DNA of 64,000 bases from contig NZ_CP100128.1 in the NCBI RefSeq assembly GCF_024207115.1, positions 4,650,001 through 4,714,000 of the forward strand, read 5' to 3'. Position 1 is the first letter of the stretch, and each line of letters starts with the position of its first letter. The position numbers and the translations under genes were made by a program. Shown here piece after piece: positions 33,194 through 64,000 of this stretch. Origin of the DNA: Chromobacterium sp. IIBBL 290-4 (GTDB taxonomy: Bacteria; Pseudomonadota; Gammaproteobacteria; Burkholderiales; Chromobacteriaceae). The notes beneath the pieces were generated by a model. That model saw only the letters and a list, made by a program, of their open reading frames with translations, searched no databases and was not told the origin of the DNA.

Positions 33194-33249
33194 AAGACCG
33201 AAAAACTCTGTGCAATCAGTAGATTGCACTTGGTTTTCCCGGTCTTTTT
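33194..33249 (+). terminator. Terminator after ssb
   Basis: A long imperfect hairpin: AAGACCG...GTGCAATC pairs with GATTGCAC...CCGGTCTT around AGTA, and is followed by TTTTCTTT. This is the last feature with core-genome character before island A. Confidence 0.75.
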
Positions 33250-33328
33250 CTTTACGTTCAAAATTTACATCACCGGAACCGTGCCGCTATCGTAAAGTCC
33301 TGTCATCTGACGAGCCAGGAGAAGTGCG

Positions 33329-33716
33329 GTGATCACGTTTTCCATTCGTGTAGTACGGATGCAGTCCGGTGAGCACATCCCCCTGCTCGTGTCCGGCGGC
33401 CCCCTCGGACTACCAGTTCCCCTCGCAACCCGTTATGTCCTGGCCCAGTTCCGGCCCAAGGGCCTGTAAAGTCAGCAGCACCCGCCAACGGCTCTCCGCC
33501 TTAGCCCTTGCCTACAACACTTTCTTTGCTAAGCATGGTATCCAACTTGACGAACGGGCAGCCAAGCATCAGTTCCCAAGTCAGAAGGAGTTGGTAGCCC
33601 TCTCCGATTACTGTCAGCAGTCGCAAAAGAATGGGCAACAACGCGCAGTCGGCTCCGACTATGCAGTGCTGACCCACTCAGATGAGCACGATTGCAAATC
33701 AGGACTTCACAAATGA
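33329..33716 (+). pseudogene. Frameshifted N-terminal fragment of a tyrosine recombinase
   Basis: A GTG start with a good AGGAG site opens a reading frame of 46 codons (FSIRVVRMQSGEHIPLLVSG, then LPVPLATRYVLAQFRPKGL) that stops at 33469. The next frame continues the same kind of sequence (RLSALALAYNTFFAKHGIQL, then DERAAKHQFPSQKELVALSD) to about 33640 before turning into unrelated residues. Joined, these match the SAM-like N-terminal domain of transposon-type phage integrases. The catalytic domain is missing. So this is a frameshifted and truncated remnant, which probably marks the left end of island A. The frame from 33369 is not an independent gene. Confidence 0.72.
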
Positions 33717-33870
33717 TTACTGTTTAATTACAACACAAGGACAAGCAGGAAAAATTTTTGTGTAACACCGTTTACAAAAATATGCCATTTAGTTATTATT
33801 GATTCGCTACACCATTTGACTCAATAACCAGTGCCATAGTTTTGCATCATTTATGGCTTTTGGTGAAAAC

Positions 33871-33899
33871 TTGACATGTATTAATTAGCCTCATAAAAA
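33871..33899 (+). promoter_or_regulatory. Putative promoter of the double-glycine peptide gene
   Basis: TTGACA at 33871-33876 and TAAAAA at 33894-33899 are spaced by 17 bases within AT-rich DNA, about 95 bases before the peptide gene. The 5' flank from 33717 shows no ORF and nothing else recognisable. Confidence 0.45.
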
Positions 33900-33992
33900 G
33901 TACATTCAATTCAAGATTGAAAGTCAGAGCATAGCAACCGTGAGTCAATATTGCAGCACGTGTTAATTTTGGGAATTCTTAGGAGGAATAAA

Positions 33993-34250
33993 ATGCAAGA
34001 ACTGGACATCAATACAATTGACTACATTTCCGGCGGCGGATACGGAGATAATTTCAATCAATGCATGGCTACTAACCTAACCGGCAGTGGCTTGGCAAGG
34101 TCATTTGCATTTGGAGCTATCGGCGGTGCCGTCGGAGGCTTTGCTCTTGGCGGCCCAATTGGGGCTGCCATCGTTGGCTTTTCCGCCGGCGGAATAAGCG
34201 TAGGAAGATCTGCCCTGCGTACAATGGAAAGATGTGCCATCATGCAGTAA
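33993..34250 (+). CDS. Double-glycine-leader peptide, putative class II bacteriocin/microcin precursor
   Basis: 85 residues. The first 15, MQELDINTIDYISGG, have the form of a double-glycine leader (EL near the start, hydrophobic spacing, GG at the end) cleaved by C39-type peptidase exporters. The predicted mature part, GYGDNFNQCMAT onward, is rich in Gly and Ala with GxxxG-like runs (GAIGGAVGGFALGGPIGAAI), as in pore-forming two-peptide bacteriocins, and has two cysteines that could form a disulfide. A near-perfect AGGAGG site precedes this ATG and decides against an upstream one. No peptidase exporter is nearby. The bacteriocin role is inferred. Confidence 0.72.
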   Translation: MQELDINTIDYISGGGYGDNFNQCMATNLTGSGLARSFAFGAIGGAVGGFALGGPIGAAIVGFSAGGISVGRSALRTMERCAIMQ

Positions 34251-34260
34251 TTTTTTCCAG

Positions 34261-34286
34261 AAAGGTCCGAAATTTTCGGATCTTTT
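34261..34286 (+). terminator. Hairpin after the double-glycine peptide gene
   Basis: GGTCCGAAA and TTTTCGGATC form a short stem followed by TTTTCG. It could end or attenuate transcription before the next small gene, as is common after peptide-precursor genes. Confidence 0.5.
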
Positions 34287-34305
34287 CGCATCTAAATTAA
34301 ATATT

Positions 34306-34617
34306 ATGAAAAAAATATACCAATGCCCCAATTGCAAAAATGCCTCTTTTTCATTTTATGAAAAACTGAGCATCGGACCAGCATCCTATCGCATTTGCCC
34401 CTACTGCAAAGAAAACATTTCCGTACCTATCCTTGCTAGCACTATATCAATCGCACCATTTATACTATCAATAGCATCTCCTCTATACTTGGGCTGGCAT
34501 TGGAAATGCCTTGTTATATTCGGACTTTCATTTTTACTGACCACCATTCTATGGAGTCGATTTACACCCCTTGTTATCAAAAAAAACCATGGCCTGAATA
34601 TTTCAAAATGGTGGTAG
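34306..34617 (+). CDS. Zinc-ribbon membrane protein, possible immunity protein
   Basis: 103 residues. Residues 6-40 are a zinc ribbon with paired CPNC and CPYC (MKKIYQCPNC, RICPYCKENISVP). Two hydrophobic segments follow (ISIAPFILSIASPLYLGW and LVIFGLSFLLTTILW), so the ribbon should face the cytoplasm with a membrane hairpin behind it. It lies 55 bases after the double-glycine peptide gene, in the same direction. Small membrane proteins in that position are often immunity proteins; here the function is a guess. Low GC, in contrast with the core genome. An upstream in-frame ATG overlaps the terminator and was not used. Confidence 0.65.
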   Translation: MKKIYQCPNCKNASFSFYEKLSIGPASYRICPYCKENISVPILASTISIAPFILSIASPLYLGWHWKCLVIFGLSFLLTTILWSRFTPLVIKKNHGLNISKWW

Positions 34618-34830
34618 ATACATGACTATTGGTTAGTGAGATGGGCACCTCACTCCGCAACCAACTAGGCGTTGAACAATCACAAGATGATGCCGTAAGA
34701 AAGAGGCCAGCTGCTTGGCCGTGCGCGACGAATCGCCAGCCTCGACAGCCGCTCGCATCACCGTGAACTAGGCGCATAGCGGCAATGGCATTGCAAGGTC
34801 GTATGAAGAATACTGTGTAAACCAACCATT
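34618..34830. other. Gap before the IS element
   Basis: Just over 200 bases without a convincing ORF, RNA or repeat. It may hold sequence displaced by the insertion. Confidence 0.3.
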
Positions 34831-34871
34831 ACTGAACCGCCCCGGGTTTCGCGGAGGCTGTTTTGTGTGAG

Positions 34872-35774
34872 TCAGACCAGCACGGCCTGCTCACTCAGAC
34901 TGCGATAGTAGTTTGCTTCTGCCTCCGCCGGTGGAATGTAACCGATCGGCGCCAGCAAGCGGTGGTGATTAAACCACGCCACCCATTCCAACGTCGCCAG
35001 CTCCACCGCCTCCAGGCTCTTCCACGGCCCGAGCCCGTGAATGACCTCCGCCTTGTACAAGCCATTGATCGTCTCGGCCAGCGCGTTGTCGTAGCTATCG
35101 CCCGTGCTGCCGACTGAGGGCTCGATGCCCGCCTCGGCCAGCCGTTCGCTCTAGCGGATCGAGACATATTGCGAGCCGCGATCACTGTGGTGGATCAAAG
35201 CGTCGCGACTCGGCTGCCGCGCCCACAGCGCCTGCTCCAGCGCGTCGAGCACAAACTCGGTGTGCATGCTGCGACTGACGCGCCAGCCAACGATAAAGCG
35301 GGCGAAGACGTCAACGACGAAAGCGACGTAGACGAAACCCTGCCAGGTCGACACATAGGTGAAGTCCGAGACCCATAGCTGGTTTGGCCGCTCCGCGACA
35401 AACTGCCGGTTGACCCGGTCGAGCGGGCACGCTGCCGCCGGATCGGGGCGAGTAGTGCGAACCGCCTTGCCGCGGATCACGCCACGCAAGCCAAGCTGCC
35501 GCATCCGTCGCTCGACGGTGCAGCGCGCCACCGCGATCTGTTCGCGCCGGAGCTGACGCCAAACCTTGTCGGCGCCATACACCTGTTGGTTGATCTGCCA
35601 GACACGCTCAATCTCGACGCTTAATCTGTCGTCACGCTGGGCTCGAGGGCTGCGCAAGGCAGGGTCTCGCTGCCGGGCGATATAGCGGCGATAGGCGGAC
35701 GGGGCGACCTGCAAGACCCGGCAGATCGGCTCGACCCCAAGCGTGTCGCGGTGCGTGTCAATGAAGGCCCTCAC
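34872..35774 (-). pseudogene. IS3-family transposase OrfB, nonsense-disrupted
   Basis: The frame is 300 codons from GTG at 35774 (overlapping the orfA stop) to 34872. It encodes the DDE integrase core: first Asp in LWVSDFTYVSTW, second in IHHSDRGSQY, and the catalytic Glu in NALAETINGLYKAEVI. An in-frame TAG at 35153-35151, where the family has Tyr (SIR-stop-SERLAEAG), separates the Glu from the two Asp residues. The protein is therefore truncated to 207 residues and should be inactive unless read through. Confidence 0.88.
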
Positions 35775-36094
35775 GACTTGAAGCGGCGGTCGAGCTCCGC
35801 CTGCGCGAAAAATGCGCTGGCCAGCCGAAGGATTTCGTTGGCCTTCTTCAGTTCGCGCACTTCGCGCTCGAGTTCTTTGACGCGGGCGGCTTCGGTGCCT
35901 GCCGGGCCATCGTTCTGACCGGTATTGCGCTCTTGCTGGCGAATCCAGCGGCGCAGTGTTTCAGCGGTGCAGCCGATCTTGGAGGTGATCGAAACGATCG
36001 CGGCTCACTGCGACTCGTACTGATCCTTAGCGTCAAAGACCATGCGCACAGCGCGCTCGCGAACTTCCGGGGAAAACTTGGTGGATTTGCTCAT
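35771..36094 (-). pseudogene. IS3-family OrfA, nonsense-disrupted
   Basis: A 107-codon frame starting [20 protein letters not shown], the helix-turn-helix transposase OrfA. Codon 30 (36007-36005) is TGA where Trp is expected in the family (YESQ-stop-AAIVSI). The rest (CTAETLRRWIRQQE, then the leucine-zipper VKELEREVRELKKANEILRL) is intact. The stop removes both the end of the DNA-binding helix and the region needed for frameshifting into OrfB. Confidence 0.85.
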
Positions 36095-36155
36095 AGCTCC
36101 ATTCTCTCAAGTGAGGGAGCCTCCGCGAAACCCGGGGCGGTTCAGTCCCACATCC

Positions 36156-37841
36156 TCAAAATGGCAGCACAAAAGGCAAATGATCTCCAATCAGGGTACG
36201 CCCTACGGGGGAACTGCCTGATTGGGATCGCGCGAAATCGGGCACGATAACCCTGCAGGCCCACCACGACGAAAATATCTTGGGAAAATCGTACACGTAG
36301 GCACTATAGCCGTGATCACGTAACGAACCCAGAGATGTTTCCAAATCGGTGGCATCGACCAGACGCTCAAATTTCTGCAGAGACAGAGTCGGCTGGCTCA
36401 TCAAGTATCCATGCAGCAGGTGAAACGCAACGGGATCCACGCACCCTTGGTATTCCAGAGAGAGCTGGTCTCCACCATGAAGCTCAGCGGACAAGCGCAA
36501 TAGCAGTTGCGCCGCCTCGATGTACGCAGCTTCGGCGGCAGCTTCCATCGAAATACCGCTACCAGTACCTCGTGTCCAGAGACCTCGAAGGTGGTCAAAG
36601 ACAAAGCAGTGGGCCACGGGCGCATGAAGTCGCTCTGGATAGGTGAAAACCAAAGCCTGGTACTCAGCACCTCTGGATGTATGAGTCCTCCGCGAAGAAA
36701 AGGCCTGCTCCAATTCAGCGCATCGAACCGCCGACGCGAGATGGGTGATGCCTGGATAGAAGTTGTGTCGTTCGATACACTCATACAGCGCTGTACGATG
36801 CGCTTCGCGGAGCGAGGTGTGGGCAGCCAAGCCCGTAGTGTCCGAGCGGAAGCGCCGCCCAGCATCAAATGGCCCCAGAACGACCAATTCATGCGGGACG
36901 AGTCGGCGGTCGCTAGAGTCAAGCAGGTTCACAACCTCTACTTCTGGGCCTGCTTGGTCAGTTACGCCGACGATCCGCTCCACATGCCAGTGTTCGTCCG
37001 ACAGTGCCTGCTTTGCTGTCTTTTCAGAGGTTCGCACACACGGTGCCGAACCCCACGCTGACAGGCGTTCGACACACTCCCCAATCAAACGAATAGCAGC
37101 TGCGGCAGGCTTTGAGCCTTTGCCTGAACAAACCGCCAATTCGTCCGGTTGAATATGAGGCACAAGGGCAGACCGGTGACAAATACCGAGCTCATCACAC
37201 TGCTGATCGTCGGCACCGTATAGAACCCCCTTGCTCCATGCGTGCAAGTCAGCAGTATCAGTTGGCCGCAATGGTTCTAGATCCGTCGGCCAGCCCAGCG
37301 CCACCGTACGCCCGGACTCAAGCAACACTGCAGTGCGACACGGATCAGCACTATCAAGAAGTTGGACGACGGCGGCCTCCAGTCGTTGCGGGTGTCGGAC
37401 CCAGAAGCCCGCACTGGTGGGTACTTCACGCCATCCGACAAGCGACTCGATTTCGGCGAGTGGACGACAGCGAGCAAGAACCTCAAGGTACGCCTGTACA
37501 TCAGATTCTCCTGCAAACACCGGCCCAATGTGGAAGCCCTCTTCGCTCTCACCGCTCCAGACTATGGGGAACTCTAACGCGCCCTCCAAGGCCTGCTCTA
37601 TCGCTTTCCGCCCGTCCGTCTGCATCAATACAACTTCACGCCCTGCAAAGCTCAAAAAGCTGGGACGAAACGGATCTTGTGGCAAAGGCTGGCTAGGTGG
37701 ATCGCCGGCTCCATGCACTAGCACCAAATCTTCGTAGGCAACGTGATTGGGGTCATGGAACACACTGTTGGGAACACCATTTTCCTCCCCGACTTTAACC
37801 ATCAGGTAGCGTGGGCACAGTTGCAGGTGTCCTTCGCTCAT
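36156..37841 (-). CDS. YcaO-family cyclodehydratase-like protein
   Basis: 561 residues. The YcaO domain covers about residues 225-560, with the three ATP/Mg regions visible: [20 protein letters not shown] followed by ER (about 236), [20 protein letters not shown] (332), and [20 protein letters not shown] (428). YcaO enzymes activate a peptide amide with ATP to form azoline, thioamide or amidine. Residues 1-200 may be a degenerate E1/ocin-ThiF-like partner region ([14 protein letters not shown] resembles its end, but the zinc cysteines are missing). The C-terminus LPFVLPF lacks the PxPxP seen in azoline formers. ATG overlaps the cupin stop (ATGA). Last gene of a peptide-MFS-cupin-ycaO cassette. 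Confidence 0.88.
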
Positions 37842-39013
37842 GGATGGCCACCCGCAGGTGACATCAACTCTTCAATGGCTGTCACAATTCCGTACGATTC
37901 TAGCGTGCGTAACAAAGGGGCAGATCGAATCAACGGTTCAGGGCCTGCTCCGAAATCAATCTCCTGCAGTTGCAGCCTGCCAGCTGCGGCAAGCATTCTT
38001 TGCTCCGCATCCACCAGCGATATTTTCAGAGCACGCGACAAAACTTCGATGACCATCATACGAGAACAAAGCATGGTCAAAAGCCAAGCAAACAAAACTT
38101 CGGACTCATCGAAATACTCGTCAACCATTCCAATGCGGGTCTTGTCCCCGAACCAATGCAAGCTGTCGACAACCGGTCCTGCCAAACCAGGGTGTCGATG
38201 CCCCAAAGCATCGCAGATAGTCTCCGTAAGGTACGAATTGGTTGCGAACGATTCGCTAGATGCTGCAGCCAGCAATTGGGCTGCGGGACGGTGATCGGCA
38301 AGATCGCTGATTAACGCAGGTAGGCGCTCAACCGCATTATCGCCCGAAAGCGAAGATTCAATAAACGTTGCCAGCTTCCGCGAATCGGCCCCCATGCCGG
38401 AACTCAAGCGCAGCGCCGCTAGGTAATGCCCCTCGTGAGGTTTGTAGACGATGCCTTTCGACCCTAACGCAGAGGTGTTGATGTCGCAAATTTGCCTAAT
38501 CGACAGCGTGACAGCAATGTCGTCAAGGTAGAAGAGCGAGTGAATCAGACCATCATGAGGAGGAATCTCGCAGATGTAACCCGGATCGCAGACATGAGCA
38601 TCATCAGCAACAAGCTCACCGGAGCATACACCGGGCGTGGTTTCTGGCCCATGCGGATGAAATTTGAACCGCACATGCACCCGTCGACCTACAACGACAC
38701 CGAAGGCGCCACCAGCCATATGATCATGCACATACGCTTCAGATCCACGCCGCCAAAACAGCAGTTCAATGCGGAAGTCTCTCTCGCGGTGGATCGTGAT
38801 TGTCGGATAGGCGAAGTCATTTTCAAGTGCAATGGCCGACGGCAGCTGCGTGCTCGCTACCTCACAAAAGAGGTCAAGTTTTGACAAGCGCTCGCATGCT
38901 TGGGTGTCGGAAATGGCGGTCTTGGCAATTTCATGAAACTGACGGTCGCCGCCCAATCCCTTCAAAACGGAGGCGGAAACATCAAGAGCAATGGCATGCA
39001 AGATGGATTTCAT
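37838..39013 (-). CDS. Cupin-domain protein of unknown function
   Basis: 391 residues. Residues about 65-175 form a cupin barrel like cysteine-dioxygenase relatives: metal ligands HDH at 96-98 (SEAYVHDHMAGGAFGVVVG) and His 158 in PPHDGLIHSLFYLDD. The remaining 210 residues are mostly helical and unrecognised. A metal-dependent oxygenase acting on the peptide or on an amino acid is the natural guess, given its place between an exporter and a YcaO enzyme; this is inference. It starts 22 bases after the MFS stop and overlaps ycaO by 4 bases. Ribosome site weak. Confidence 0.7.
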   Translation of the reverse strand: MKSILHAIALDVSASVLKGLGGDRQFHEIAKTAISDTQACERLSKLDLFCEVASTQLPSAIALENDFAYPTITIHRERDFRIELLFWRRGSEAYVHDHMAGGAFGVVVGRRVHVRFKFHPHGPETTPGVCSGELVADDAHVCDPGYICEIPPHDGLIHSLFYLDDIAVTLSIRQICDINTSALGSKGIVYKPHEGHYLAALRLSSGMGADSRKLATFIESSLSGDNAVERLPALISDLADHRPAAQLLAAASSESFATNSYLTETICDALGHRHPGLAGPVVDSLHWFGDKTRIGMVDEYFDESEVLFAWLLTMLCSRMMVIEVLSRALKISLVDAEQRMLAAAGRLQLQEIDFGAGPEPLIRSAPLLRTLESYGIVTAIEELMSPAGGHP

Positions 39014-39035
39014 ATGATTGAGTGAAGCAAACGAA

Positions 39036-40244
39036 TCAGGATTGATTAGACGTAGGGATCGCGCCTACGGTGGCTGTTCGACTTCGCATGCACAACGGTA
39101 CGACGGCCAAGGAAAGGGCCAGAAAAGCGTAGAGCCACCAGATGTCTTTTGGACGGACATGTAAAAGGAAGATCCACGACAAAGCGAACGTCATCGCCCC
39201 GAGTGCGTTCTCAACAAGGCCTTGTATAGAAATGGCACTACCGGAAATCGAGGCATCAATTGCCTCGTAAAATCGGTGGCGATAGTGCATCTCCGCGCAC
39301 AACGCCGACACCATCATGATGGTGAAGAACAACCAGGCAGGCCAGCCGCTGGCAAGCGGAAGAATGATCAGCACGGGCAAAAACAACCACAGCATCAGAT
39401 CACGCCAAGCCGGTCGTGCCTCGATATGTACGGAAACCTTGGGCGCGAACAGTGTCACAATCCCCGAAAGCAACTGTAGCGCTAATAGCAGAACCGGTGT
39501 TTTCTGCAAGGCGGGCACCAGTACCATGGCAGCGTTCGACATCGCTGCCGCAGATACTGTCCGCACCATTGAGATATTCAACACATCACCCCAGAGTTTG
39601 CGTCGGCGCAACTCGCGCGCGCAATCCCGGTAATGTTGGCTGATCGTTGCCTTCGCCAGAGGCTGCAGCTGTGGCCACAGGGCGTAAACATAACCGGCAG
39701 TCAACAGTGCCATGGCTATGCACAGCAACCAAACCGAATCCAGCCCCAGAATTAGGGTGGTGCCATATCCCAAGAGACTGCCGATCACCAGTGAGCCTGC
39801 GCGTACAAGCATCACCCAGCGAACCATCCTGGAGGCCTCGACCTCCGTACCAAGCTGTGCGGACCACACCATAATTTGAGTGGAAAACAGTCCGCTCATG
39901 AATGTTACGGCCAACCCCGCGAGCACGCTTGCGACACAAAGAGAAATAGTCGAGCCTTGCCCCCAGTAATACAAACCAAAGGCAACTGACCGGAGCAGCA
40001 ACGAGCAAATCAGCGACCCCCTGGCTCCCCACCGATCCACAACATAACCAGTCGGCAGTTCAAAAATAAAAAGACTCATCCAAAACCAGAACAGGAGCAG
40101 GTTCGCGTCTGCTGCACTGCCCATCGACTGCGCAGCAAAGGCAGTAAACGCGAATCCCATGGCTGCCTCGAAAGCACCAATGGCGAATGCGGGAACATTA
40201 ACGCGCAATAGAATGCGCTTGGTGATATCGGGGGAATGAACCAT
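39036..40244 (-). CDS. MFS exporter of the YcaO cassette
   Basis: Twelve-helix major-facilitator protein of 402 residues from the ATG at 40244 (a TTG eight codons upstream is possible). Motif A-like loop: GYVVDRWGARGSLICSLLLR after helix 2. The mixed tryptophan-rich helices and short length are typical of drug or peptide exporters. First long gene after the 24-codon peptide ORF, and followed by cupin and ycaO genes with short gaps, so a role in exporting the matured product or in self-protection is likely. Confidence 0.85.
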   Translation of the reverse strand: MVHSPDITKRILLRVNVPAFAIGAFEAAMGFAFTAFAAQSMGSAADANLLLFWFWMSLFIFELPTGYVVDRWGARGSLICSLLLRSVAFGLYYWGQGSTISLCVASVLAGLAVTFMSGLFSTQIMVWSAQLGTEVEASRMVRWVMLVRAGSLVIGSLLGYGTTLILGLDSVWLLCIAMALLTAGYVYALWPQLQPLAKATISQHYRDCARELRRRKLWGDVLNISMVRTVSAAAMSNAAMVLVPALQKTPVLLLALQLLSGIVTLFAPKVSVHIEARPAWRDLMLWLFLPVLIILPLASGWPAWLFFTIMMVSALCAEMHYRHRFYEAIDASISGSAISIQGLVENALGAMTFALSWIFLLHVRPKDIWWLYAFLALSLAVVPLCMRSRTATVGAIPTSNQS

Positions 40245-40339
40245 GAAATCTGCGCACCAGTGGGTCAAGAAAGTCGCGGTAAGTTAGGTCAATGACGCTG
40301 AAAAGAGGCCCACCGATGAGGGCAGGCCTCTGGGAGCCC

Positions 40340-40369
40340 AAAAAACCCTGCTAAAGATCAGTAGGGTTT
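40340..40369 (-). terminator. Leaky terminator after the 24-codon peptide gene
   Basis: Read leftwards, AAACCCT (40369-40363) pairs with AGGGTTT (40349-40343), plus two inner pairs, then TTT. The hairpin overlaps the last codons of the peptide ORF and lies before the MFS gene. Such a weak terminator would let the precursor be made in excess over the enzymes. Confidence 0.6.
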
Positions 40370-40432
40370 GGCTTGAGCAACATTCTTCAGGGCCTTCTTG
40401 GTACTGACGCGAATAACATTAGGCTTTTGCAT
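40358..40432 (-). CDS. 24-residue peptide, putative RiPP precursor
   Basis: A short ORF upstream of the MFS-cupin-ycaO genes on the same strand. It starts MQKPNVIRVSTKK and ends KNVAQAKPY before TGA. A strong AAGGAGA site sits 5 bases before the ATG, and a hairpin terminator overlaps the end, both typical of precursor genes. It is basic (five Lys, one Arg), has one Ser and one Thr (SerThr at 10-11) and no Cys, so thiazole formation is excluded. No double-glycine leader. The precursor role rests on position, ribosome site and terminator, not on homology. Confidence 0.62.
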   Translation of the reverse strand: MQKPNVIRVSTKKALKNVAQAKPY

Positions 40433-40495
40433 GGATTTCTCCTTGAGTGGGATTAGGATGAGCCGCCACTGCACATTGCGAGTAACGGCTTGAAG

Positions 40496-40525
40496 AATAT
40501 AATCCTAAAAACCGCAGTCGCGCAA
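40496..40525 (-). promoter_or_regulatory. Possible promoter of the YcaO cassette
   Basis: Read leftwards, TTGCGC (40525-40520) and TATATT (40501-40496) are 18 bases apart, about 65 bases before the 24-codon ORF. A weak match, but the only candidate near the expected place. Confidence 0.35.
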
Positions 40526-40802
40526 TACCATTGGCATAAAATGTGAGCAGACCCGCCGATTTTGGAGGGCCCATTCCTGCCAGCATCTGTTTGAGATAGT
40601 TGCATGCCTGCTGTCAGACGGTGAGGACAGACAACTGCTCCGCAGCGCGGCTGGCCCAGCCCTGAAGCCAAACAGAGACTCGCATAAAGGCTGCCCGGGC
40701 GCTGGCGAGATGCGCGTGCATGCCCGTCAATGCGATGGTCGCTTTTCCGGCATGCTCCGTTTTCTGCCCTACCTGTAAGGGCTTGCAATCCAGAGCACGG
40801 CT

Positions 40803-40916
40803 GGCTCAAATTAATTGCACCCACCTGAAAGCTCCGGCTCAGATTACGTGCAACTGGAGTTGCAATCGACCCGCCTAGCTCACAATCCGTGTCGGCGGAC
40901 TCAGATTATCTGCAAC
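40803..40916 (+). repeat. Three imperfect direct repeats (GGCTCAGATTA-nn-TGCAAC type)
   Basis: Copies lie at 40803-40820, 40836-40854 and 40897-40915: GGCTCAAATTAATTGCAC, GGCTCAGATTACGTGCAAC, GGACTCAGATTATCTGCAAC. A weaker related stretch starts at 40876. Repeats of this shape occur at the ends of elements moved by tyrosine recombinases, such as the family of the broken integrase at 33.3 kb. They may be binding sites left from a lost element; this is inference. Confidence 0.6.
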
Positions 40917-41048
40917 TACCAACTTGTCAGGTTGAAGCCTTGGACGATGCCATGTCTGGAAATGCCCGACGTCCCCCCACTTTCAGTAGCAGAGAGCTTT
41001 AGAGGTGTTAACAACCTTTTTGATCAACGGCACAGCTTGCTACAGACA

Positions 41049-41080
41049 AAAACCCGCGCTCATTGAGACGCGGGCTTTTT
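41049..41080 (+). terminator. Orphan terminator-like hairpin
   Basis: AACCCGCG and CGCGGGCTTTTT pair around CTCATTGAGA, followed by a good T-run. No gene ends just upstream, so it seems to be a relic of deleted DNA. Confidence 0.6.
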
Positions 41081-41528
41081 CATTTTCATTGACGTGGCAG
41101 GCGCTCTGCACTTATGTCGCGGCACGCCTAAGAATGGTCTGGTTGTGGCTTGCTCCTGCTTCTGCTCTTCGGCCGAAGCAGTCAGTCATGCCTTTGTGCT
41201 AGCATGGCTGTTCTTGATCCATTGCGGACATCTGCTTAAAGGGGCGAGGAGCTGATCCGCAGCGATAGCCACCCCATGGCCATCATGTGCCAACGCACCG
41301 TAATTTGTTGCCTCCCGGTCGGTCTACTGGGTGCTCGTGACCAACCACTACAACCGCGCGACTGCTACGCTGAGTCGCACTAGTTGACGCATTGATTAGA
41401 AATAGATCAGCCGCCTGATCATAGACAGCGTGTGCGACAACATTTTTATAGTAGATTCGTCAAGCAATCGGCCACGGAGGTACTTCGGTCGACGTGAGAT
41501 GCAATCGAGGGGAGAAGGAGAGGCCTGC

Positions 41529-42725
41529 ATGGAGGAGTTGGATCGCTTGGTCGATTCGTTGACATCCGAAGCGTCGGAGGCAGACCCTGAGGTCCTGCGG
41601 CAAAGAGCCAAGCTTGCAATGGTAGATGCATGGCGCGAGATCGTTCCCCAGCTTCGGTACAAGGCTGAGGCAGGCAGCATGGCCTGGCTGAGGCGTTATG
41701 AAGGCAGCGCGTTCGACCAATGCGCTCGGCGTATCACCCCGCTTACCAAATCGGACTATGGGCGGGGGCGCCCGACAGCCTCATTCCAGCGTTTCATCGA
41801 CGAGGCAAACGCAATAGCCCGTGAGTCCAAGCTACTGGAAAAGCACTCGCTGGAGACTGTTGGGGTGCTACCGATAGGAACCGTCAATTCGTTTGCACTG
41901 TGGATCGCGCCAGACAGCGCCAATTCGAAGATGGCTGTCTTTCAACTCGGCCTTCATGAGTGCATCGACGGTCTGTTGCGCGCCGTAGTGGCCATCGAAG
42001 GTTGGCTGCCATTCGAGTTGTTCGACGACATCGACTTCAAATCAGACGGATGGCATGATAGCTACCGAGCGGCCATCGACGACTGCATCGACGCTCACGA
42101 CGAAGTGATTTCCTTCGTAGAACACCTGCTGCTACGGACATTGTTCGTTGGCCACCCCCAGGGTATGCATCATTTTCCGCTGGCCACGTCTTCGAGGGAG
42201 CTGCACCGCATCCTCCTCCGCCACGTCGAGCTGTTTCGGATCGGCCACGAGATCGGACATGTCGTGGCTGCCGCCCAAGGCCCGCACGGGGCCGGTAGTT
42301 TACCGCTGCACATCGGACCTACAGTTGTGGCCGTTGCGCCATCGACACCGGAGGAAGAGTTCATCGCCGACATGATTGGGGGTGGAATATCCGATGCAGG
42401 CAGGCCGCAGCGTGGGCGGAGGATGTCTGCCGAGGTCTTCAGGTACGCAGGGGTAGCTCCGGATCTTTGCTTGTCTATGTTCGCGCTGCTAGAAGACGCC
42501 GTGACCGCATTAGGCGGTTGCCGAGTCGCCCTAGATTGGCACACGTCAGCACGTGCGCGCCGACAGGTCCGGCGAGACCTCCTCTCCGAGTGGGGAGACA
42601 AGCCAGGGATCGTACTCGGCCAGAGGCTGCAATTCGTGCTTGAGGCGGTGCAAAGGCTTATCCTGCCAAAGCTCAAAGAATGTATACAGCGCGGGGCCGC
42701 ACTGAGTGCCGTGTGGCACGGCTAG
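41529..42725 (+). CDS. Putative zinc metallopeptidase (HExxH), first gene of a three-gene operon
   Basis: 398 residues from this start, which has AAGGAGAGG nine bases upstream; a longer in-frame start at 41430 is less likely. The zinc motif is HEIGHV at 240-245 (FRIGHEIGHVVAAAQ); EEEFIADMIGG at 275-285 supplies a likely third ligand in the gluzincin manner (helix with E/D and A-D). No signal peptide or membrane helix, so the target should be cytoplasmic. I do not recognise the family beyond the HExxH fold. It is followed by a small protein and a second HExxH protein, suggesting one system. Codon use and GC differ from the core genome. Confidence 0.7.
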   Translation: MEELDRLVDSLTSEASEADPEVLRQRAKLAMVDAWREIVPQLRYKAEAGSMAWLRRYEGSAFDQCARRITPLTKSDYGRGRPTASFQRFIDEANAIARESKLLEKHSLETVGVLPIGTVNSFALWIAPDSANSKMAVFQLGLHECIDGLLRAVVAIEGWLPFELFDDIDFKSDGWHDSYRAAIDDCIDAHDEVISFVEHLLLRTLFVGHPQGMHHFPLATSSRELHRILLRHVELFRIGHEIGHVVAAAQGPHGAGSLPLHIGPTVVAVAPSTPEEEFIADMIGGGISDAGRPQRGRRMSAEVFRYAGVAPDLCLSMFALLEDAVTALGGCRVALDWHTSARARRQVRRDLLSEWGDKPGIVLGQRLQFVLEAVQRLILPKLKECIQRGAALSAVWHG

Positions 42726-42755
42726 AGGATTTAATCACGACAAAAGGGGAGCTTT

Positions 42756-43061
42756 ATGAGCAAAACTCAATCCATTTCAATACAGGTACAGAAAAATGAC
42801 GAGGACTTCCTTCAGGCGATGCGAGCGGAAACAGAGATCGGCTTCGTCGAGTTAGAAACCTCGAGCTTTGATGGGCAGTCCGAGATCACCACCGTCGTGG
42901 TAACGCTCACGCCCCTGGTAATCGGTCTTATCGGCAGGATCGTGTCTCAGCAACTGAAGGCGCGCCGGTACATAAAGGTGGTGTACAAGGGACTTCAGAT
43001 CCAGGGCCTCAGCGACGAGAACGCTACGCGCCTGATCGAGAAGTTGATCGACAAGCAGTGA
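42756..43061 (+). CDS. Small EACC1-like adaptor protein
   Basis: 101 residues. The layout resembles effector-associated constant component 1 (EACC1) of bacterial conflict systems: an N-terminal strand-rich part (SISIQVQKNDEDFLQAMRAE), a central hydrophobic helix (VVVTLTPLVIGLIGRIVSQQ), then KVVYKGLQIQGLSDENATRL. The assignment is from pattern memory only. EACC1 proteins accompany peptidase or nuclease effectors, matching the two flanking HExxH genes. AAGGGGAGC lies before the ATG. The stop overlaps the next gene's GTG (GTGA), so stoichiometric coupling to the second peptidase is likely. The central helix might alternatively be a membrane anchor. Confidence 0.55.
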   Translation: MSKTQSISIQVQKNDEDFLQAMRAETEIGFVELETSSFDGQSEITTVVVTLTPLVIGLIGRIVSQQLKARRYIKVVYKGLQIQGLSDENATRLIEKLIDKQ

Positions 43062-44419
43062 AAACAGCCGAAGAAGTGTTTCCCGCCCCCGTGTTGGCTT
43101 ACATCGAGTCGACGCGGTTCTCGCTGCCAGAGGTAGTCTCGAGCAAGCAGACCATTGAGATCCGAGATGCGTTCTACGATCCATTTGTCCAGTACTTGAA
43201 GCGCATTGGCGACGCGTTTGGCATTCAAGCCACAGTCGGCCTAGTCTACACGGACATGATGCGTTCCGAGGCTATAACCATTGGAGGGCAGAGCTACATC
43301 GCGCACGACCAGTACTTCGGGCAAGTCATCAATATGATGAACCGCATGTTCCTATACGGCGCATCAAAGAAGACTAAGGTCATCTACTTCCACAAGGTGG
43401 CGTCGCAAGTGCTGAGCCGCTATGGCTTCTATCCGGAGTCCACCTTCGCCGCGAATCTCTATCGCGAGTCGCGCAAGGACATGGACCACATCATGAAGCA
43501 AAGGCGCGATGGCTCCTCGCGTCATGGTCTATACACCACGGTGCAGGAACTGTTTGTGCTGCTGCACGAGCAGTCCCATGTCATCTTCAAGCACCATCCC
43601 GACCTATTAAATGAGATGTCTGCTGATGTGAGAGCATGGTTGGTCGACTACGCGAAGCCGAGTCGTGCAAGCGCCACCGAGTTGCAGGCTGCGATGCAGG
43701 CGCAAGGTTGGTCCGAGGTAGAGCAGACCGAGTTCCGCGAGCAAGAAGCAGCGTACATGGCATCGATGCAGTTGCGTACCGCCTTCTGCGAAGAGATAGT
43801 GTCTAGGAAAGACTTGGTCGAGGAGTTCTGCTGCGATCAGCTCGCGCTAATTAACGTGCTCGGGTACTTTGCCGGTAGTACCTATCGGGTGCATGGAGAG
43901 AAAATGAGACGGGACTACAGCGGGACAGATAAGATCACTGCCGTCCTACTGTGCTTCCTAAATATGCGAACTTTGCAGATGATGGAGGCAATGTGTGCGC
44001 TGGAGAAGAACGCTGATTTTCTGAGCCGCTCACAAGGCTCCATTTCCGCCACCGAGGGTGTGTATGAAACGTTCTACAGCGCGCGCCTGCACCGTGCGAA
44101 AGATCTTTGCTACGACCTCGCGCTGAACGATGACGAAGATGCCACCTCCATTCACATGCAGGTGAGTAGGCTGATGGACCACCACACCGACGAGATCTTC
44201 GCGATGGCCGAGGGGACTTTGCGCCGCCTGCTGTACGAGAAAGAACTCCGTCCCGAAATAGAGCGTGTCTTTGAGCCGCTCACATCTGAGATTACTGACA
44301 ACCAGCACCTTAAGCGCACCGTCACTGCGATGTTGCATCTGATACCGGATCGGCCGGAAGATGGCCGTACTACTTCCAAGAAAGCGAAGAAGCGTTCGCG
44401 AAATGGCAAGAAGCGCTGA
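43058..44419 (+). CDS. Putative zinc metallopeptidase (HExxH), third gene of the operon
   Basis: 453 residues starting at a GTG that overlaps the preceding stop. Zinc motif HEQSHV at 170-175 (FVLLHEQSHVIFKHHPDLL), and DLVEEFCCDQLAL at 252-264 as the likely third-ligand helix. The C-terminus is very basic (KKAKKRSRNGKKR), which suggests binding to nucleic acid or to an acidic partner. It is not closely similar to the first peptidase of the operon outside the motif. No signal peptide. Family not recognised; conflict or defence role inferred from the EACC1-like neighbour and island location. Confidence 0.7.
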   Translation: MKTAEEVFPAPVLAYIESTRFSLPEVVSSKQTIEIRDAFYDPFVQYLKRIGDAFGIQATVGLVYTDMMRSEAITIGGQSYIAHDQYFGQVINMMNRMFLYGASKKTKVIYFHKVASQVLSRYGFYPESTFAANLYRESRKDMDHIMKQRRDGSSRHGLYTTVQELFVLLHEQSHVIFKHHPDLLNEMSADVRAWLVDYAKPSRASATELQAAMQAQGWSEVEQTEFREQEAAYMASMQLRTAFCEEIVSRKDLVEEFCCDQLALINVLGYFAGSTYRVHGEKMRRDYSGTDKITAVLLCFLNMRTLQMMEAMCALEKNADFLSRSQGSISATEGVYETFYSARLHRAKDLCYDLALNDDEDATSIHMQVSRLMDHHTDEIFAMAEGTLRRLLYEKELRPEIERVFEPLTSEITDNQHLKRTVTAMLHLIPDRPEDGRTTSKKAKKRSRNGKKR

Positions 44420-44664
44420 GGCAGCCACAACACTTGAGTTGAAGCGAGTCAGCGACCAAGATTCAGTCCCAGATGCGGGTATGTCTGTAATTCTGTGTAA
44501 AACAGCCGCACAAGAGTCATACAACGACTGGCAGCTTTGGCCGATTAGCCGCCCAAGTTACCAATTTCCCACATCACCAGCTACTTGTTGCTTTCTCGTC
44601 AATCACTGCTAACGTATCAGAAACAGTGATCTGCCCCTCCCCACGCAACCAGCAAAATCCAGCC
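44420..44664. other. Right border region of island A
   Basis: Roughly 245 bases between the second metallopeptidase and the slyD terminator. No ORF with coding character, no direct repeat pairing convincingly with the left border was found. Confidence 0.4.
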
Positions 44665-44697
44665 AAAACAAAACCCTCCCAAATCGGGAGGGTTTTG
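44665..44697 (-). terminator. Terminator after slyD
   Basis: CAAAACCCTCCC and GGGAGGGTTTTG pair around a short loop; read leftwards TTTTGTTTT follows. It marks the return to core sequence after island A. Confidence 0.85.
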
Positions 44698-44718
44698 CTT
44701 GTGCGGGGGACGCCGGGA

Positions 44719-45195
44719 TCAGTGCTGATGCCCGTGTTCGCCATGCACATGCTGGTGGGCGATTTCTTCGGCAGTGGCCTCGCGCACATCCACCACTTTA
44801 AGGGAGAAGCGCAGGTCTTTGCCGCACAGCGGGTGGTTGCCGTCCAGCAAGACGGTCGGGCCTTTGATCTTGGTGACGAAATAGTAGCGCGGCTGGCCGT
44901 CCGGGCCCAGGCGCTGGATCTGGCCGCCCACCTTGATTCCGGGCGGAAAGTCAGCCTTGGGCATGGTGGTGGACAGGGCTTCGTCGCGCGCGCCAAAGGC
45001 GTCTTCGGTAGCTAGCTCCACCGTGGTCTGGAAGCCGGGTTCCTGGCCTTCCAGCGCGGCTTCCAGCTTGGGAAACAGGTTGTCGTAACCGCCGTGCAGA
45101 TAGGCGACCGGGTGCTTGCCGTCGTCGTAGACCAGACCTTGGCTGTCGGTGACTTTCATGCGCACGGTAACGGCGGTGTTTGCAGTGATTTTCAT
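44719..45195 (-). CDS. slyD: FKBP-type peptidyl-prolyl isomerase SlyD
   Basis: Prolyl isomerase and metallochaperone of 158 residues. The FKBP domain is interrupted by the insert-in-flap typical of SlyD (residues about 75-120; KVVDVREATAEEIAHQHVHG begins the tail). Start motif VTVRMKVTDSQG and the YLHGGYDNLFPKLEAALEGQ stretch are diagnostic. The tail HQHVHGEHGHQH is a short metal-binding histidine segment, which fits nickel supply to hydrogenase or urease in other species. Start at 45195 chosen over one eight codons upstream because the SlyD motif begins there. Confidence 0.92.
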   Translation of the reverse strand: MKITANTAVTVRMKVTDSQGLVYDDGKHPVAYLHGGYDNLFPKLEAALEGQEPGFQTTVELATEDAFGARDEALSTTMPKADFPPGIKVGGQIQRLGPDGQPRYYFVTKIKGPTVLLDGNHPLCGKDLRFSLKVVDVREATAEEIAHQHVHGEHGHQH

Positions 45196-45287
45196 GGCGG
45201 GCAATGGCAAATAAAACAAAGCCGGAAGGGTGGCAGTTCAGCGCGGGAGTGTCAACTCATCCGCCCCAATCGAAACCAGCGAAGCAT

Positions 45288-45324
45288 CAAAAAGAAGCCG
45301 GCCTCTTCTGAAGAGAGCCGGCCC
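45288..45324 (-). terminator. Terminator after the LivJ-like gene
   Basis: GCCGGC-CTCTTC and GAAGAG-GCCGGC (one mismatch) form a long stem; read leftwards TTCTTTTTG follows. Confidence 0.75.
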
Positions 45325-45370
45325 AAGGCGGAGGAGTACGCCGGGGTAATATCGTCTTACCTGCCCGCGC

Positions 45371-46519
45371 TTAGTGGACCACAGTCTCCACGGTCCAGGC
45401 CTTGTTTTTCACCACGGACAAGGTGACCGGCGCCTTCAAGAGATTGCCGTTAGGCGCGAAAGCGAAATCCGCCGTCACGCCGCTGTAGCGGATGGCGGCC
45501 AGCTTGGGGAGATATTTGGCCGGCTCCACCGAGCCCGCCTGCTTCATCGCCGCGGCCACCAGCATCACGCCGTCGTAGAACTGCGGCCCCAGCAGCACCA
45601 CGTCCTGATGGAAGCGCTCCTTGTAACGGCGCTCAAACGCCTTGCCCGCCGGACGGGCGCTCAGCACGCCGCCGGCCACCGCCGAGTAATGGCCGGCCGC
45701 GTCCTCTCCCGCCAGTTGGATGAAGGTGGGCGTATTGAGCATGTCCCCGCCCATCAGCTTGGCCTTGAGCCCCAGCCGCTTCATCTGCTTGACCATGGGC
45801 GCGGCCTGGGCGTCGGCGCCGCCGTAAAACACCACGTCTGGATTGACGGCCTTCAGCGAGGTGAGGATGGCGGTGAAGTCGGTGGCTTTGTCGGTGGTGA
45901 ATTCGCGGCGCGTCACCTTGCCGCCGTTAGCGGCCACCGCCTTGACGAATTCATCTGCAATGCCTTGGCCGTAGGCAGTGCGGTCGTCGATGGCGACGAT
46001 GGTTTTGGCCTTCATCGTTTTGACGGCGAACTGACCCAGCGCGCCGCCTATCTGGCTGTCGCTGCCCACCAGGCGGAAAGTGGTTTTGTAGCCTTGCTGG
46101 GTATAGGCCGGGTTGGTGGCCACCGATAATTGCGGAATGCCGGCGTCGGAATAGATGCGCGAGGCCGGGATGGACACGCCGGAGTTGAAGTGGCCGATAA
46201 CGGCCTTCACGCCGGCGTCCACCAGCCGCTGCGCCGCCTGGGTGCCGATGCGCGGATCGGCCTGGTCGTCCTCGGACACCAGTTCGAACTGGATCTTCTG
46301 CCCGCCCACCACCAGGCCCTTGGCGTTGATGTCGTCCACCGCCATCTTGGCGGCGTTTTCGTTGTCCTTGCCATAGTGTGCCTGCGGGCCGGACAACGGC
46401 GAGGCGAAGCCTATCTTGACCACGGTATCGGCATGGGCCGCCGCCATGGCAAACGGCGCCATCATGCCGCCCAGCGCCAGCACCCAGTTCATTTCCGCAA
46501 ACAGTTTGTTCCAAGCCAT
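45371..46519 (-). CDS. Branched-chain amino-acid-type ABC binding protein (LivJ-like)
   Basis: Periplasmic binding protein of 382 residues. Signal peptide about 30 residues long, ending AAAHA before DTVVKIGFASPLSGPQAHYG, the usual start of LivJ/LivK mature proteins. Type I fold features include GHFNSGVSIPASRIYSDAGI and TAYGQGIADEFVKAV. The start at 46519 has AGGAG seven bases upstream. No permease or ATPase lies beside it. Because it is next to, and codirectional with, the hydroxyproline genes, it may bind hydroxyproline or proline; the ligand is inferred. Confidence 0.88.
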   Translation of the reverse strand: MAWNKLFAEMNWVLALGGMMAPFAMAAAHADTVVKIGFASPLSGPQAHYGKDNENAAKMAVDDINAKGLVVGGQKIQFELVSEDDQADPRIGTQAAQRLVDAGVKAVIGHFNSGVSIPASRIYSDAGIPQLSVATNPAYTQQGYKTTFRLVGSDSQIGGALGQFAVKTMKAKTIVAIDDRTAYGQGIADEFVKAVAANGGKVTRREFTTDKATDFTAILTSLKAVNPDVVFYGGADAQAAPMVKQMKRLGLKAKLMGGDMLNTPTFIQLAGEDAAGHYSAVAGGVLSARPAGKAFERRYKERFHQDVVLLGPQFYDGVMLVAAAMKQAGSVEPAKYLPKLAAIRYSGVTADFAFAPNGNLLKAPVTLSVVKNKAWTVETVVH

Positions 46520-61601: not shown

Positions 61602-62198
61602 ATGGCACTATTTACAGAAGCAAGTGTTCGCCAGCGAGCGCAGGCAGAGGTTCGTAAGTCTGGCACAGTCAAGAAGGCAAGTCAGATTGTTCTTGAGGCC
61701 TGCGCCTCGTACACACCATCTAAAACCTACGACATTTTCCTTTCACACAGTATCCGTGATGCTGAACTAATTTTAGGAATGAAAGGAATTCTAGAGGACC
61801 TAGGATACACAGTGTACGTAGATTGGATAGAAGATCCTCAAATGGATCGATCTACAGTCACTGCGAAAACAGCAGACAAGCTTCGGCAAAGAATGAACTC
61901 ATCAAAGTCACTATTCTTTGTTACAACTTCTAATGCTGAATCATCACGATGGATGCCGTGGGAATGTGGATTCTTCGATGGAAAGAAGGAAAAAGTTGCG
62001 ATCGTGCCAATTCAAGCGACATCTACGAGCAATAGTTATTCCGGACAAGAGTATCTCGGCCTATACCCATACGTAGTAAAACAACCGGATGAAAATAGAA
62101 AAGAGACGCTTTGGGTTAGGAAGAGCAGCTCAAGATATATTTCATACGATGAATGGGTCTCAACCCCAAATTCTCATATTTCATGGAGGGAAGGATAA
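61602..62198 (+). CDS. TIR-domain protein, ThsB/Thoeris-like
   Basis: 198 residues. After a 42-residue N-terminal part lies a TIR domain: YDIFLSHSIRDAELILGMKG (start about residue 43), YTVYVDWIEDPQ, and the predicted catalytic Glu 121 in RWMPWECGFFDGKK. This layout (SHS with D, WECGFF) is that of bacterial TIR proteins such as ThsB and related NAD-processing or signal-making defence proteins. AAGGAG nine bases before the ATG. Its stop adjoins the ATG of the membrane protein. Low GC points to recent acquisition. Confidence 0.88.
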   Translation: MALFTEASVRQRAQAEVRKSGTVKKASQIVLEACASYTPSKTYDIFLSHSIRDAELILGMKGILEDLGYTVYVDWIEDPQMDRSTVTAKTADKLRQRMNSSKSLFFVTTSNAESSRWMPWECGFFDGKKEKVAIVPIQATSTSNSYSGQEYLGLYPYVVKQPDENRKETLWVRKSSSRYISYDEWVSTPNSHISWREG

Positions 62199-62603
62199 AT
62201 GGAAAAGACTATTGCACATCTTGGTTTTATCCAAGGAGTAATTTCTAGAATGGGAGCAAACTCTTTCCTCCTCAAGGGATGGAGTGTGACACTTGTTGCT
62301 GCAATATTTGCCTTGTCTGCTAAGGATGCAAATTTCAAATTTGTATTAATTGCATATTTTCCTGTGATAGTTTTTTGGGTTCTTGATTCCTACTTTCTTC
62401 ATCAAGAACGGTTGTTTAGGAAGCTATACGAAGGCGTTGCTTCAGGTAGGATTTCAAGCGAAAAATTTACAATGGACACAACGATTGTTCGTAATGACGT
62501 TGCCTCCATCTGCTGTGCGGCTTTTTCAAAAACATTGCTTATATTTCACGGAGCCGTCATCGCAATAGTTTTGTTTGCGATGTTCTTCATCATGAAGCCA
62601 TGA
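62199..62603 (+). CDS. Membrane protein of the TIR operon
   Basis: 134 residues. Two N-terminal hydrophobic helices (LLKGWSVTLVAAIFALSA and FVLIAYFPVIVFWVLDSYFL), a basic segment with HQERLFRKLYEGVASG, and a C-terminal hydrophobic helix (LLIFHGAVIAIVLFAMFFIM). So three helices probably, with a cytosolic loop. The start MEKTIAHLGFIQGVISRMGA, then NSFLLKGW, belongs to a small membrane protein type that I associate with TIR genes but cannot name. ATG follows the TIR stop directly, suggesting a joint product or effector pair. Confidence 0.72.
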   Translation: MEKTIAHLGFIQGVISRMGANSFLLKGWSVTLVAAIFALSAKDANFKFVLIAYFPVIVFWVLDSYFLHQERLFRKLYEGVASGRISSEKFTMDTTIVRNDVASICCAAFSKTLLIFHGAVIAIVLFAMFFIMKP

Positions 62604-62901
62604 TTTACATAGTGCATGAGGCTTAACCCTATTACGCATAGATAGCACTATTCCAAACAATGATTTTCTCTCTTAGATTCATGTTATCTTTCATTAGAAA
62701 ATGCTTTAGAAAGGCATACAATGAGTTCGCGCAGAATTTATATGGCAATTATTTAAAAACAACCAATCCTTGCTCGGTCAATCCAAGAGAAAAAATGCCA
62801 AGTCATCAAGCCATGGCCATAAATTCACTTTCTGCTCGGGGGTCTATATTCCTCTTGCAGTGTTAATTTTTATCTCAAAATCAATCGTAATCGGTTAACT
62901 T
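62604..62901. other. Gap between the TIR operon and the second TIR gene
   Basis: Almost 300 AT-rich bases. A 68-codon frame (62660-62866) has no ribosome site and no coding character, so I do not call it. No clear promoter motif for the second TIR gene. Confidence 0.35.
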
Positions 62902-64000
62902 ATGGCAGGCATGCTTAAACGTAAATATTTTTCAGAAACACAAGCATTCAAAAGGGAATTCACAAGACCATTGAGTCAAATTTCAGCGGCGTTACCATCG
63001 GAGTACACTGAGCAAACCATTATTGACCTATATAAATATTATTTTCCTCTAGGCTGGATCAGATTAAACAAGAGATACGAAAGCTATAAAAAAAAAGACA
63101 GCTTTCTTCAAAACGTTGGCAAGAAGGCAAGATATTTCCATGAAGAACCCATTGCCTTCCTGCTAAATCTTCCAAAAGCAAAACACCTTTTATCAGCAGG
63201 TGTAAGAAAAACCCATAAATCAGAATTCTCTCATGAAAGAAGAATGCTGGCCATTAATGCGCTAGAAGAGCAAAGAAATAAAAATACAAACTCTCACAAT
63301 GAAAAATCACGCAATGCACGAACTTTAGTGCAAGCAATTGAGCCGCTGCATATTGATATTTTTATTTATGCCTATCACAAAAAAGGCTCAACAACGCAAG
63401 ACAAAGTGGAAATATTCAATGAACTCAAAAAATATGAATGCGAAAAATCAATCCAATTCTTTCATAAGTTAAACGACAGCGAGAGAAATGATCAAATAAG
63501 ACGCATGGCATTCTCACACTTGCAAAAAATGGGAGAATTTGTAAAACTCAGGAAGCGCTTTAAAGGGAAGTCAAAGTCTTATATGACTGAACGAGAAGCC
63601 TTTGACGTAACGCCAAAGGACTTGGCAGATAGAATTGAAAGGAACTCCATCCAAAGCCAGAAGGCTTATGATGTATTTATATCTCATAGCTACCTAGATT
63701 CAAAGTTGGTGATCAGTATAAAAAATGAGCTCAACTCAAAAAACATAAGCGTTTACTGTGACTGGACAAATGATAATGACTTCCTGAAACGAGATCTGGC
63801 AAGTGAATATACAGAGGTTGTACTAAAGAAAAGAATTGAACAATCAAAGTACTTATTGCTCGTAATAACAGATAACTCCATAGGCCAAGATGGAGAAATA
63901 AAGTCAAAATGGGTTGAAATGGAAATTTCTCATGCTGAAAATATATCAAAACAAATATATTGCATAAACCTTAGCGGCGGAAAAACAAGATTTAGCGCCC
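62902..64000 (+). CDS. Second TIR-domain protein, partial (runs off window)
   Basis: At least 366 codons, open to the last base. The N-terminal 250 residues are helical, very basic and unrecognised (MAGMLKRKYFSETQAFKREF; RNARTLVQAIEPLHIDIFIY). From residue 256 there is a TIR domain: KAYDVFISHSYLDSKLVISI, ISVYCDWTNDNDFLKRDLAS, and the candidate catalytic Glu in KSKWVEMEISHAE (339 or 341). The start is ATG 62902 or 62911; ribosome site weak. Same TIR type as the upstream gene, with DW after the second strand. Its end and full length are outside the window. Confidence 0.85.
   Translation, partial: MAGMLKRKYFSETQAFKREFTRPLSQISAALPSEYTEQTIIDLYKYYFPLGWIRLNKRYESYKKKDSFLQNVGKKARYFHEEPIAFLLNLPKAKHLLSAGVRKTHKSEFSHERRMLAINALEEQRNKNTNSHNEKSRNARTLVQAIEPLHIDIFIYAYHKKGSTTQDKVEIFNELKKYECEKSIQFFHKLNDSERNDQIRRMAFSHLQKMGEFVKLRKRFKGKSKSYMTEREAFDVTPKDLADRIERNSIQSQKAYDVFISHSYLDSKLVISIKNELNSKNISVYCDWTNDNDFLKRDLASEYTEVVLKKRIEQSKYLLLVITDNSIGQDGEIKSKWVEMEISHAENISKQIYCINLSGGKTRFSA

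Follow-up and report, generated by a model that had tools for sequence, protein, structure and literature searches.

A four-gene cassette built around a YcaO protein in Chromobacterium sp. IIBBL 290-4 may be a compact new operon for a ribosomally synthesized and post-translationally modified peptide (RiPP), with a layout like that of microcin C, and we put the chance that this reading is correct at about even. The cassette lies in a 64,000-nucleotide stretch of contig NZ_CP100128.1 (positions 4,650,001 to 4,714,000), which is referred to here as the window and whose numbering is used throughout. In reading order on the minus strand, the cassette consists of a 24-codon open reading frame (ORF) that encodes a candidate precursor (or leader) peptide (MQKPNVIRVSTKKALKNVAQAKPY; 40358..40432), a major facilitator superfamily (MFS) transporter of 402 amino acids that is a putative exporter (39036..40244; Pfam MFS_1, E 1.2e-9), a cysteine-dioxygenase-like cupin of 391 amino acids (37838..39013; ligands H96/H98/H158), and a YcaO protein of 561 amino acids (36156..37841; Pfam PF02624). 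The first-pass annotation had described four tightly packed minus-strand ORFs, and all four stand at these coordinates, with the cupin and YcaO ORFs overlapping by 4 bases (ATGA).

The microcin C-like layout is seen at the head of the cassette. The 24-codon ORF has AAGGAG six bases before its ATG, and within positions 40245 to 41429 no other minus-strand ATG ORF of 15-80 codons is led by a ribosome site. The ribosome site ahead of the exporter is weak by eye, and a mechanical TTG start of the MFS ORF would sit at 40268. The short ORF is followed by two terminator-like hairpins on the same strand. Hairpin 1 (40338..40369) has the form AAACCCTACTGA tct TTAGCAGGGTTTTTT, with a folding energy of -9.6 kcal/mol and a U run after it, and the stop codon of the 24-codon ORF together with codons 22-24 makes up its 5' arm; after hairpin 2 (40300..40331; -19.5 kcal/mol) comes a short T run. 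The 1185 bases that precede the exporter were put through 2000 dinucleotide shuffles, which were evaluated with criteria fixed after the site had been seen: a ribosome-site-led ORF of 15-80 codons was present in 450 and is by itself not rare, whereas such an ORF joined to a stable hairpin and a T run was present in none (0/2000; post hoc criteria). The fold of the 211-base leader had a z score of -2.79 relative to shuffled copies, of which 1 in 200 was equally stable. In microcin C operons, according to the available text of PMC6495379, the tiny precursor gene mccA is separated from mccB by a terminator that serves precursor dosage, and a pump gene is also present.

Gene order, motifs and hairpins are read from the DNA itself, and from them we infer that transcripts terminate, which substrate and chemistry are involved, and what the cupin does. 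Most transcripts would stop after the 24-codon ORF, which would leave the peptide in excess over the enzymes; this excess is suggested by the strong initiation site in combination with the hairpins, as described for microcin C. The N-terminal region of the YcaO protein would hold the peptide, and the YcaO protein with ATP would activate a backbone amide, most likely beside Ser10-Thr11, or would act by forming a thioamide or amidine. The cupin, presumably of the iron type, would carry out a second step that is either oxidative or sulfur-linked, and the MFS protein would export the product and protect the cell. The peptide contains no Cys, 1 Ser and 1 Thr in its 24 residues, is Lys-rich and has a C-terminal Tyr, so that Ser10-Thr11 are its only heterocyclizable residues. 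The 24-codon ORF is a candidate for encoding the substrate of the YcaO protein, and it could instead encode an attenuator leader peptide.

The cupin domain covers about residues 56-173, the second half of the protein has no assignment, and no Pfam or NCBIfam family matched the cupin. When it was compared with the Protein Data Bank (PDB; 177,635 sequences) using phmmer, two cysteine-dioxygenase-type chains were the only hits at E <= 5 (0.11 and 1.3), and a profile of two cupins retrieved no cysteine-dioxygenase-type chain from the PDB at E <= 10. Two cupins were each aligned with the two chains, which had been chosen because they were the best hits, and in all four comparisons the observed score exceeded those of all 1000 shuffles, with 68 versus 61 as the narrowest margin. 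H96, H98 and H158, which both cupins share, each align with one of the three metal ligands. The earlier description of an oxygenase-like cupin with HDH at 96-98 and His 158 is thus supported by the alignment to thiol dioxygenases, in which all three histidines fall on metal ligands, and the protein appears to possess the three-His metal site of cysteine dioxygenase (CDO)-like cupins.

The YcaO domain occupies residues 239-536 (PF02624, E 2.6e-27) and is the only PF02624 match in the whole genome. Among NCBIfam models, TIGR03604 gave 60.7 bits, well under its cut-off of 219.25, and there was a weak match to the McrA thioamidation family; because of the low score of the former and the weakness of the latter, no NCBIfam subfamily model claims the protein. 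A PDB search returned no chain at E <= 1, and a profile search yielded nothing but unrelated chains, with E values starting at 0.25. The first-pass annotation had reported complete ATP motifs, and this is broadly right by eye (GECVER, YECIERH and EAAQ). However, at two positions that we take to be usual nucleotide contacts, as in LynD (Ser four residues before the first Glu and Gln four before the second), the cassette YcaO has Arg and Thr/Ala. The domain is open and conserved in all 3 sequences available, which also share the C-terminal tail LPFxLPF; a proline-rich C terminus is characteristic of azoline-forming YcaO proteins and of AmiD (available text of PMC8442711). A tree of 37 sequences, namely 34 of 50 profile hits and the 3 cassette proteins, placed the cassette clade on a long branch beside an E. 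coli-type pair (NF040716) with a support of 66, from which we draw no conclusion on placement. The 16 hits left out were 5 duplicates (L007, L009, L010, L011 and one of L013), 4 copies of the window's own YcaO (L001, L002, L006 and L064), L061, and 6 E1-like or short proteins (one each of L012, L013, L014, L019, L022 and L041). In this tree the label "TfuA" denotes a flanking tblastn match to the TfuA of L005 (PF07812), and the label "other" is our own.

The cassette proteins are rare. Apart from the window's own proteins, about 5.8 billion clustered proteins yielded 2 relatives of the YcaO (75% and 66%), 1 of the cupin (69%) and 4 of the exporter (63-85%), in searches that score only the approximately 8000 candidates sharing most words each and could therefore miss distant relatives. 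For the closest relatives of YcaO, cupin and exporter (P0002, P0005 and P0007), the longest contig on record is in each case one of 5097 bp, and the source is the same; in all likelihood the trio occurs together on this one metagenome contig. A search for co-occurring YcaO, cupin and MFS genes had been proposed as a check in the first-pass annotation. A further relative, P0009, comes from a metagenome contig of 4.7 kb. Another of the exporter relatives (P0008, 74%) is found on a 52.5-kb metagenome contig that none of the YcaO and cupin relatives found report; the exporter may also occur alone, for example for self-protection. Among sequenced genomes, only the strain itself carried a copy: this was the outcome for the YcaO among 61 genomes, for the cupin among 19 genomes of the genus and 274 of the class, and for the exporter among 250 genomes of the order (E <= 1e-30). 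The YcaO profile matched 4 of 369 genomes of the class, which correspond to the strain's own and to 3 distant YcaO domains (E 1e-9 to 2e-4), each adjoined by a TfuA-like gene. No relatives were detected in plasmids (YcaO, cupin and MFS), genome contigs (YcaO and cupin) or viral contigs (all three) by scans that require near-exact short peptide stretches, which distant relatives could escape. Likewise, a literature search that mostly did not extend to subscription papers returned no example of a YcaO and cupin cassette and no match for the combination of YcaO, cysteine dioxygenase and precursor peptide; as far as their available text goes, in two papers that name both YcaO and cupin the cupins lie outside the YcaO clusters.

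Several observations weigh against a RiPP operon. Chief among them, a leader-peptide attenuator would look the same, with the end of its ORF forming part of a terminator-like hairpin; the last three codons belong to the hairpin stem and may have been retained for its sake rather than for the peptide. For the 133-base part that contains both hairpins, the excess of stability is only moderate (z -1.91; 10 of 200 shuffles equally stable), and a simple promoter and terminator scan listed neither hairpin and no minus-strand promoter, for which reason termination at the hairpins is a reading and not a result. Furthermore, a Cys-free 24-mer with one Ser-Thr pair would be a poor fit to an azole peptide; Pfam and NCBIfam revealed no protease, dehydrogenase or recognized recognition domain in the cassette proteins; and AlphaFold models from alignments of 3 and 2 sequences had predicted local distance difference test (pLDDT) values of 31 and 34, too low for use. 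The main rival explanation is that translation of the short ORF, or stalling on it, decides whether the hairpin forms and so controls the exporter, and that the target of the YcaO protein, a protein or small molecule, is encoded outside the cassette. This is a possible but doubtful alternative. It agrees with the inclusion of the stop codon and the last three codons in the stem, with a transporter as the next gene, with the Lys-rich and Cys-free composition of the 24-mer, and with E. coli YcaO modifying uL16 and not a small peptide (available text of PMC13063428). However, the minimum-energy fold of the leader contains no clear mutually exclusive antiterminator helix (alternatives were not searched systematically), the terminator after the tiny precursor gene of microcin C serves dosage (available text of PMC6495379), and an operon of exporter, oxygenase and YcaO without a substrate gene would be unusual. 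Since both explanations rest on the same hairpin, neither gains from the outcome of the scan. We consider it very unlikely that the cassette is the remainder of a cluster that decayed or was truncated when an insertion sequence (IS) of the IS3 family removed further genes (protease, dehydrogenase, partner), and that this remainder may not work. The IS3 element directly abuts the cassette and by eye shows no evident target duplication at its ends, as after a rearrangement, but all cassette ORFs are open, the C-terminal end of the YcaO protein coincides with that of both relatives, and the 5097-bp contig with the same trio leaves little room for more genes.

A second question is whether the YcaO protein has a partner. 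The first-pass annotation had stated that no E1-like, TfuA or SagB partner is present. This stands to the extent that none is a separate cassette protein or was recognized in the genome by profile: whole-genome searches gave 0 matches to TfuA (PF07812) and 0 to the SagB dehydrogenase (TIGR03605), and a single sub-threshold match to the E1-like TIGR03882 far from the cassette (24.6 versus 36.9 bits). True absence is unproven on account of YcaO residues 1-235, a region without a Pfam match and without an E1, ThiF or RRE match in Pfam or NCBIfam; the copy in the window had two NCBIfam matches here (0.0016 and 0.26), to unrelated families and absent from both relatives. These residues could be a fused, reduced and highly diverged E1-like partner, in which case the pathway would be a known azol(in)e pathway and the cupin merely an accessory tailoring enzyme. 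We judge this improbable; it is compatible with the cassette being a RiPP operon, and both can hold. By eye, the elements of residues 60-190 follow the order of the second half of a LynD/TruD-type E1-like domain, namely a strand (VLMQTD), a helix, FPxx together with 10 further residues, two helices and a strand. In a comparison by hhalign and with a profile of 8 E1-like regions, the best match fell on the E1-like GPxF motif by hhalign (E 0.15) and by hmmsearch for two of three relatives, and L040, one of the proteins compared, is clearly related to LynD/TruD. Cryptic partners of this kind exist, as illustrated by the predicted E1-like partner AmiB of streptamidine, which shows no conserved domains in ordinary sequence analysis (available text of PMC8442711). 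Nevertheless, the match is not significant. The hmmsearch scores of the three relatives were -0.9, -1.6 and -2.3 bits, a value of -0.9 bits or more was reached by 53 of 900 shuffled N-terminal copies (best shuffle 7.3), the hhalign E value was only 0.15, and another register was best for P0002 and in a second hhalign run (E 0.37). The scarcity of Cys, Ser and Thr in the 24-mer, the genome without a SagB match and the lack of Pfam or NCBIfam matches to E1, ThiF or RRE also argue against it. The claim that the cupin takes the place of the partner fared similarly, in that the protein is oxygenase-like but its substitution for a partner is not established. In its boldest form, which we think unlikely, this claim would define a new class of RiPP: an iron cupin resembling thiol dioxygenases would stand in for E1 or TfuA, the YcaO protein would add a backbone sulfur or nitrogen modification to the Cys-free 24-mer, and the cupin would supply or oxidize that sulfur or bind the peptide through its second half. 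A backbone thioamide would hold the only sulfur of the peptide besides Met.

The G+C content of the stretch from 33200 to 46500 is 0.558 and that of the cassette is 0.547, as compared with 0.643 and 0.677 in the flanks. This stretch begins just after ssb. In a comparison of 8 of 11 related loci, similarity to the window ended within about 30 bases after ssb in 7 (one of which, L068, had only about 100 further bases) and about 500 bases further on in the eighth. The cassette region looks like horizontally gained DNA. It is bounded by the IS3-family element (34831..36146), whose end lies 9 bp past the stop codon of ycaO. The IS3-family element carries an ALIL element (RF01497) and inverted repeats of 29 bp that match perfectly, and inspection by eye suggests that its second reading frame is interrupted. 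On the other side of the IS3-family element, the plus strand encodes an 85-amino-acid peptide (33993-34250) with a double-glycine-type leader (MQELDINTIDYISGG) and a Gly-rich remainder, which is class II bacteriocin-like although its matches are not significant (PF10439, E 0.45; MccV, E 1.8), and a small protein (34306-34617) that has CxxC pairs, is probably bound to the membrane and could be the immunity protein of that peptide. Divergent from the cassette are three plus-strand genes (41430-44419) without a significant Pfam match or a PADLOC match. Two of them encode proteins with HExxH-like motifs (HEIGH and HEQSH) that flank a 101-amino-acid protein with one likely membrane helix, an arrangement reminiscent of EACC1-type conflict systems (available text of PMC7159879); these putative peptidases might serve the neighboring peptide. 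At the end of the window, positions 62001-64000 have a G+C content of 0.369, far under that of the rest.

If the peptide is the substrate, the cassette would represent a minimal YcaO pathway with one peptide, two enzymes and one exporter, would contain an accessory enzyme type without YcaO precedent in the literature searched, and would provide a clean system for YcaO function without a recognizable partner. The relation to known systems is partial in each case. The cupin shares the HDH...H ligands and the surrounding motifs with thiol dioxygenases (4qma and 6xb9), but differs from them in its length of 391 amino acids, its unassigned second half and the lack of a matching family model. Standalone YcaO proteins resemble that of the cassette in that they act without a partner. 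In the available text of the sources, this applies to the bottromycin enzymes (PMC8442711, PMC7136475) and to E. coli YcaO, which acts on ribosomal protein uL16 (PMC13063428). They differ in their accessory genes, and the E. coli-type neighborhood in the tree combines a support of 66 with very long branches. Thioamidated RiPPs of the YcaO-TfuA type are represented in the class by the 3 distant YcaO proteins with TfuA next door, whereas the genome analyzed has 0 matches to PF07812 and its YcaO protein has an N-terminal extension and is accompanied by a cupin. With linear azol(in)e-containing peptides and thiazole/oxazole-modified microcins (LAP/TOMM), the cassette has in common the YcaO cyclodehydratase domain (TIGR03604, 60.7 bits), a short ORF, an exporter and a proline-containing YcaO tail. 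Unlike these systems, its TIGR03604 score is far below the 219.25-bit cut-off, no partner is recognized, the genome has 0 SagB matches, and the 24-mer, with 0 Cys, 1 Ser and 1 Thr, has no Cys/Ser/Thr-rich core. Azoline-only pathways, on the other hand, do not need SagB. Membership in the microcin C, lasso or lanthipeptide systems was rejected, as Pfam and NCBIfam detected no such enzyme domain in the three cassette proteins. Microcin C operons require an MccB-like adenylating enzyme and a C-terminal Asn; the cassette has no such enzyme, with no ThiF-type domain in any of its three proteins, and its peptide ends in Tyr instead of Asn and is encoded by 24 instead of 7 codons. Both nonetheless begin with a tiny gene, have a terminator (in the cassette, terminator-like hairpins) ahead of the gene that follows, and include a pump gene, which in mcc is of the MFS type. 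This likeness would be one of working principle, in gene order and dosage control, and not of membership. If true, the hairpin after the 24-codon gene would represent the same dosage trick as in microcin C, used in unrelated chemistry.

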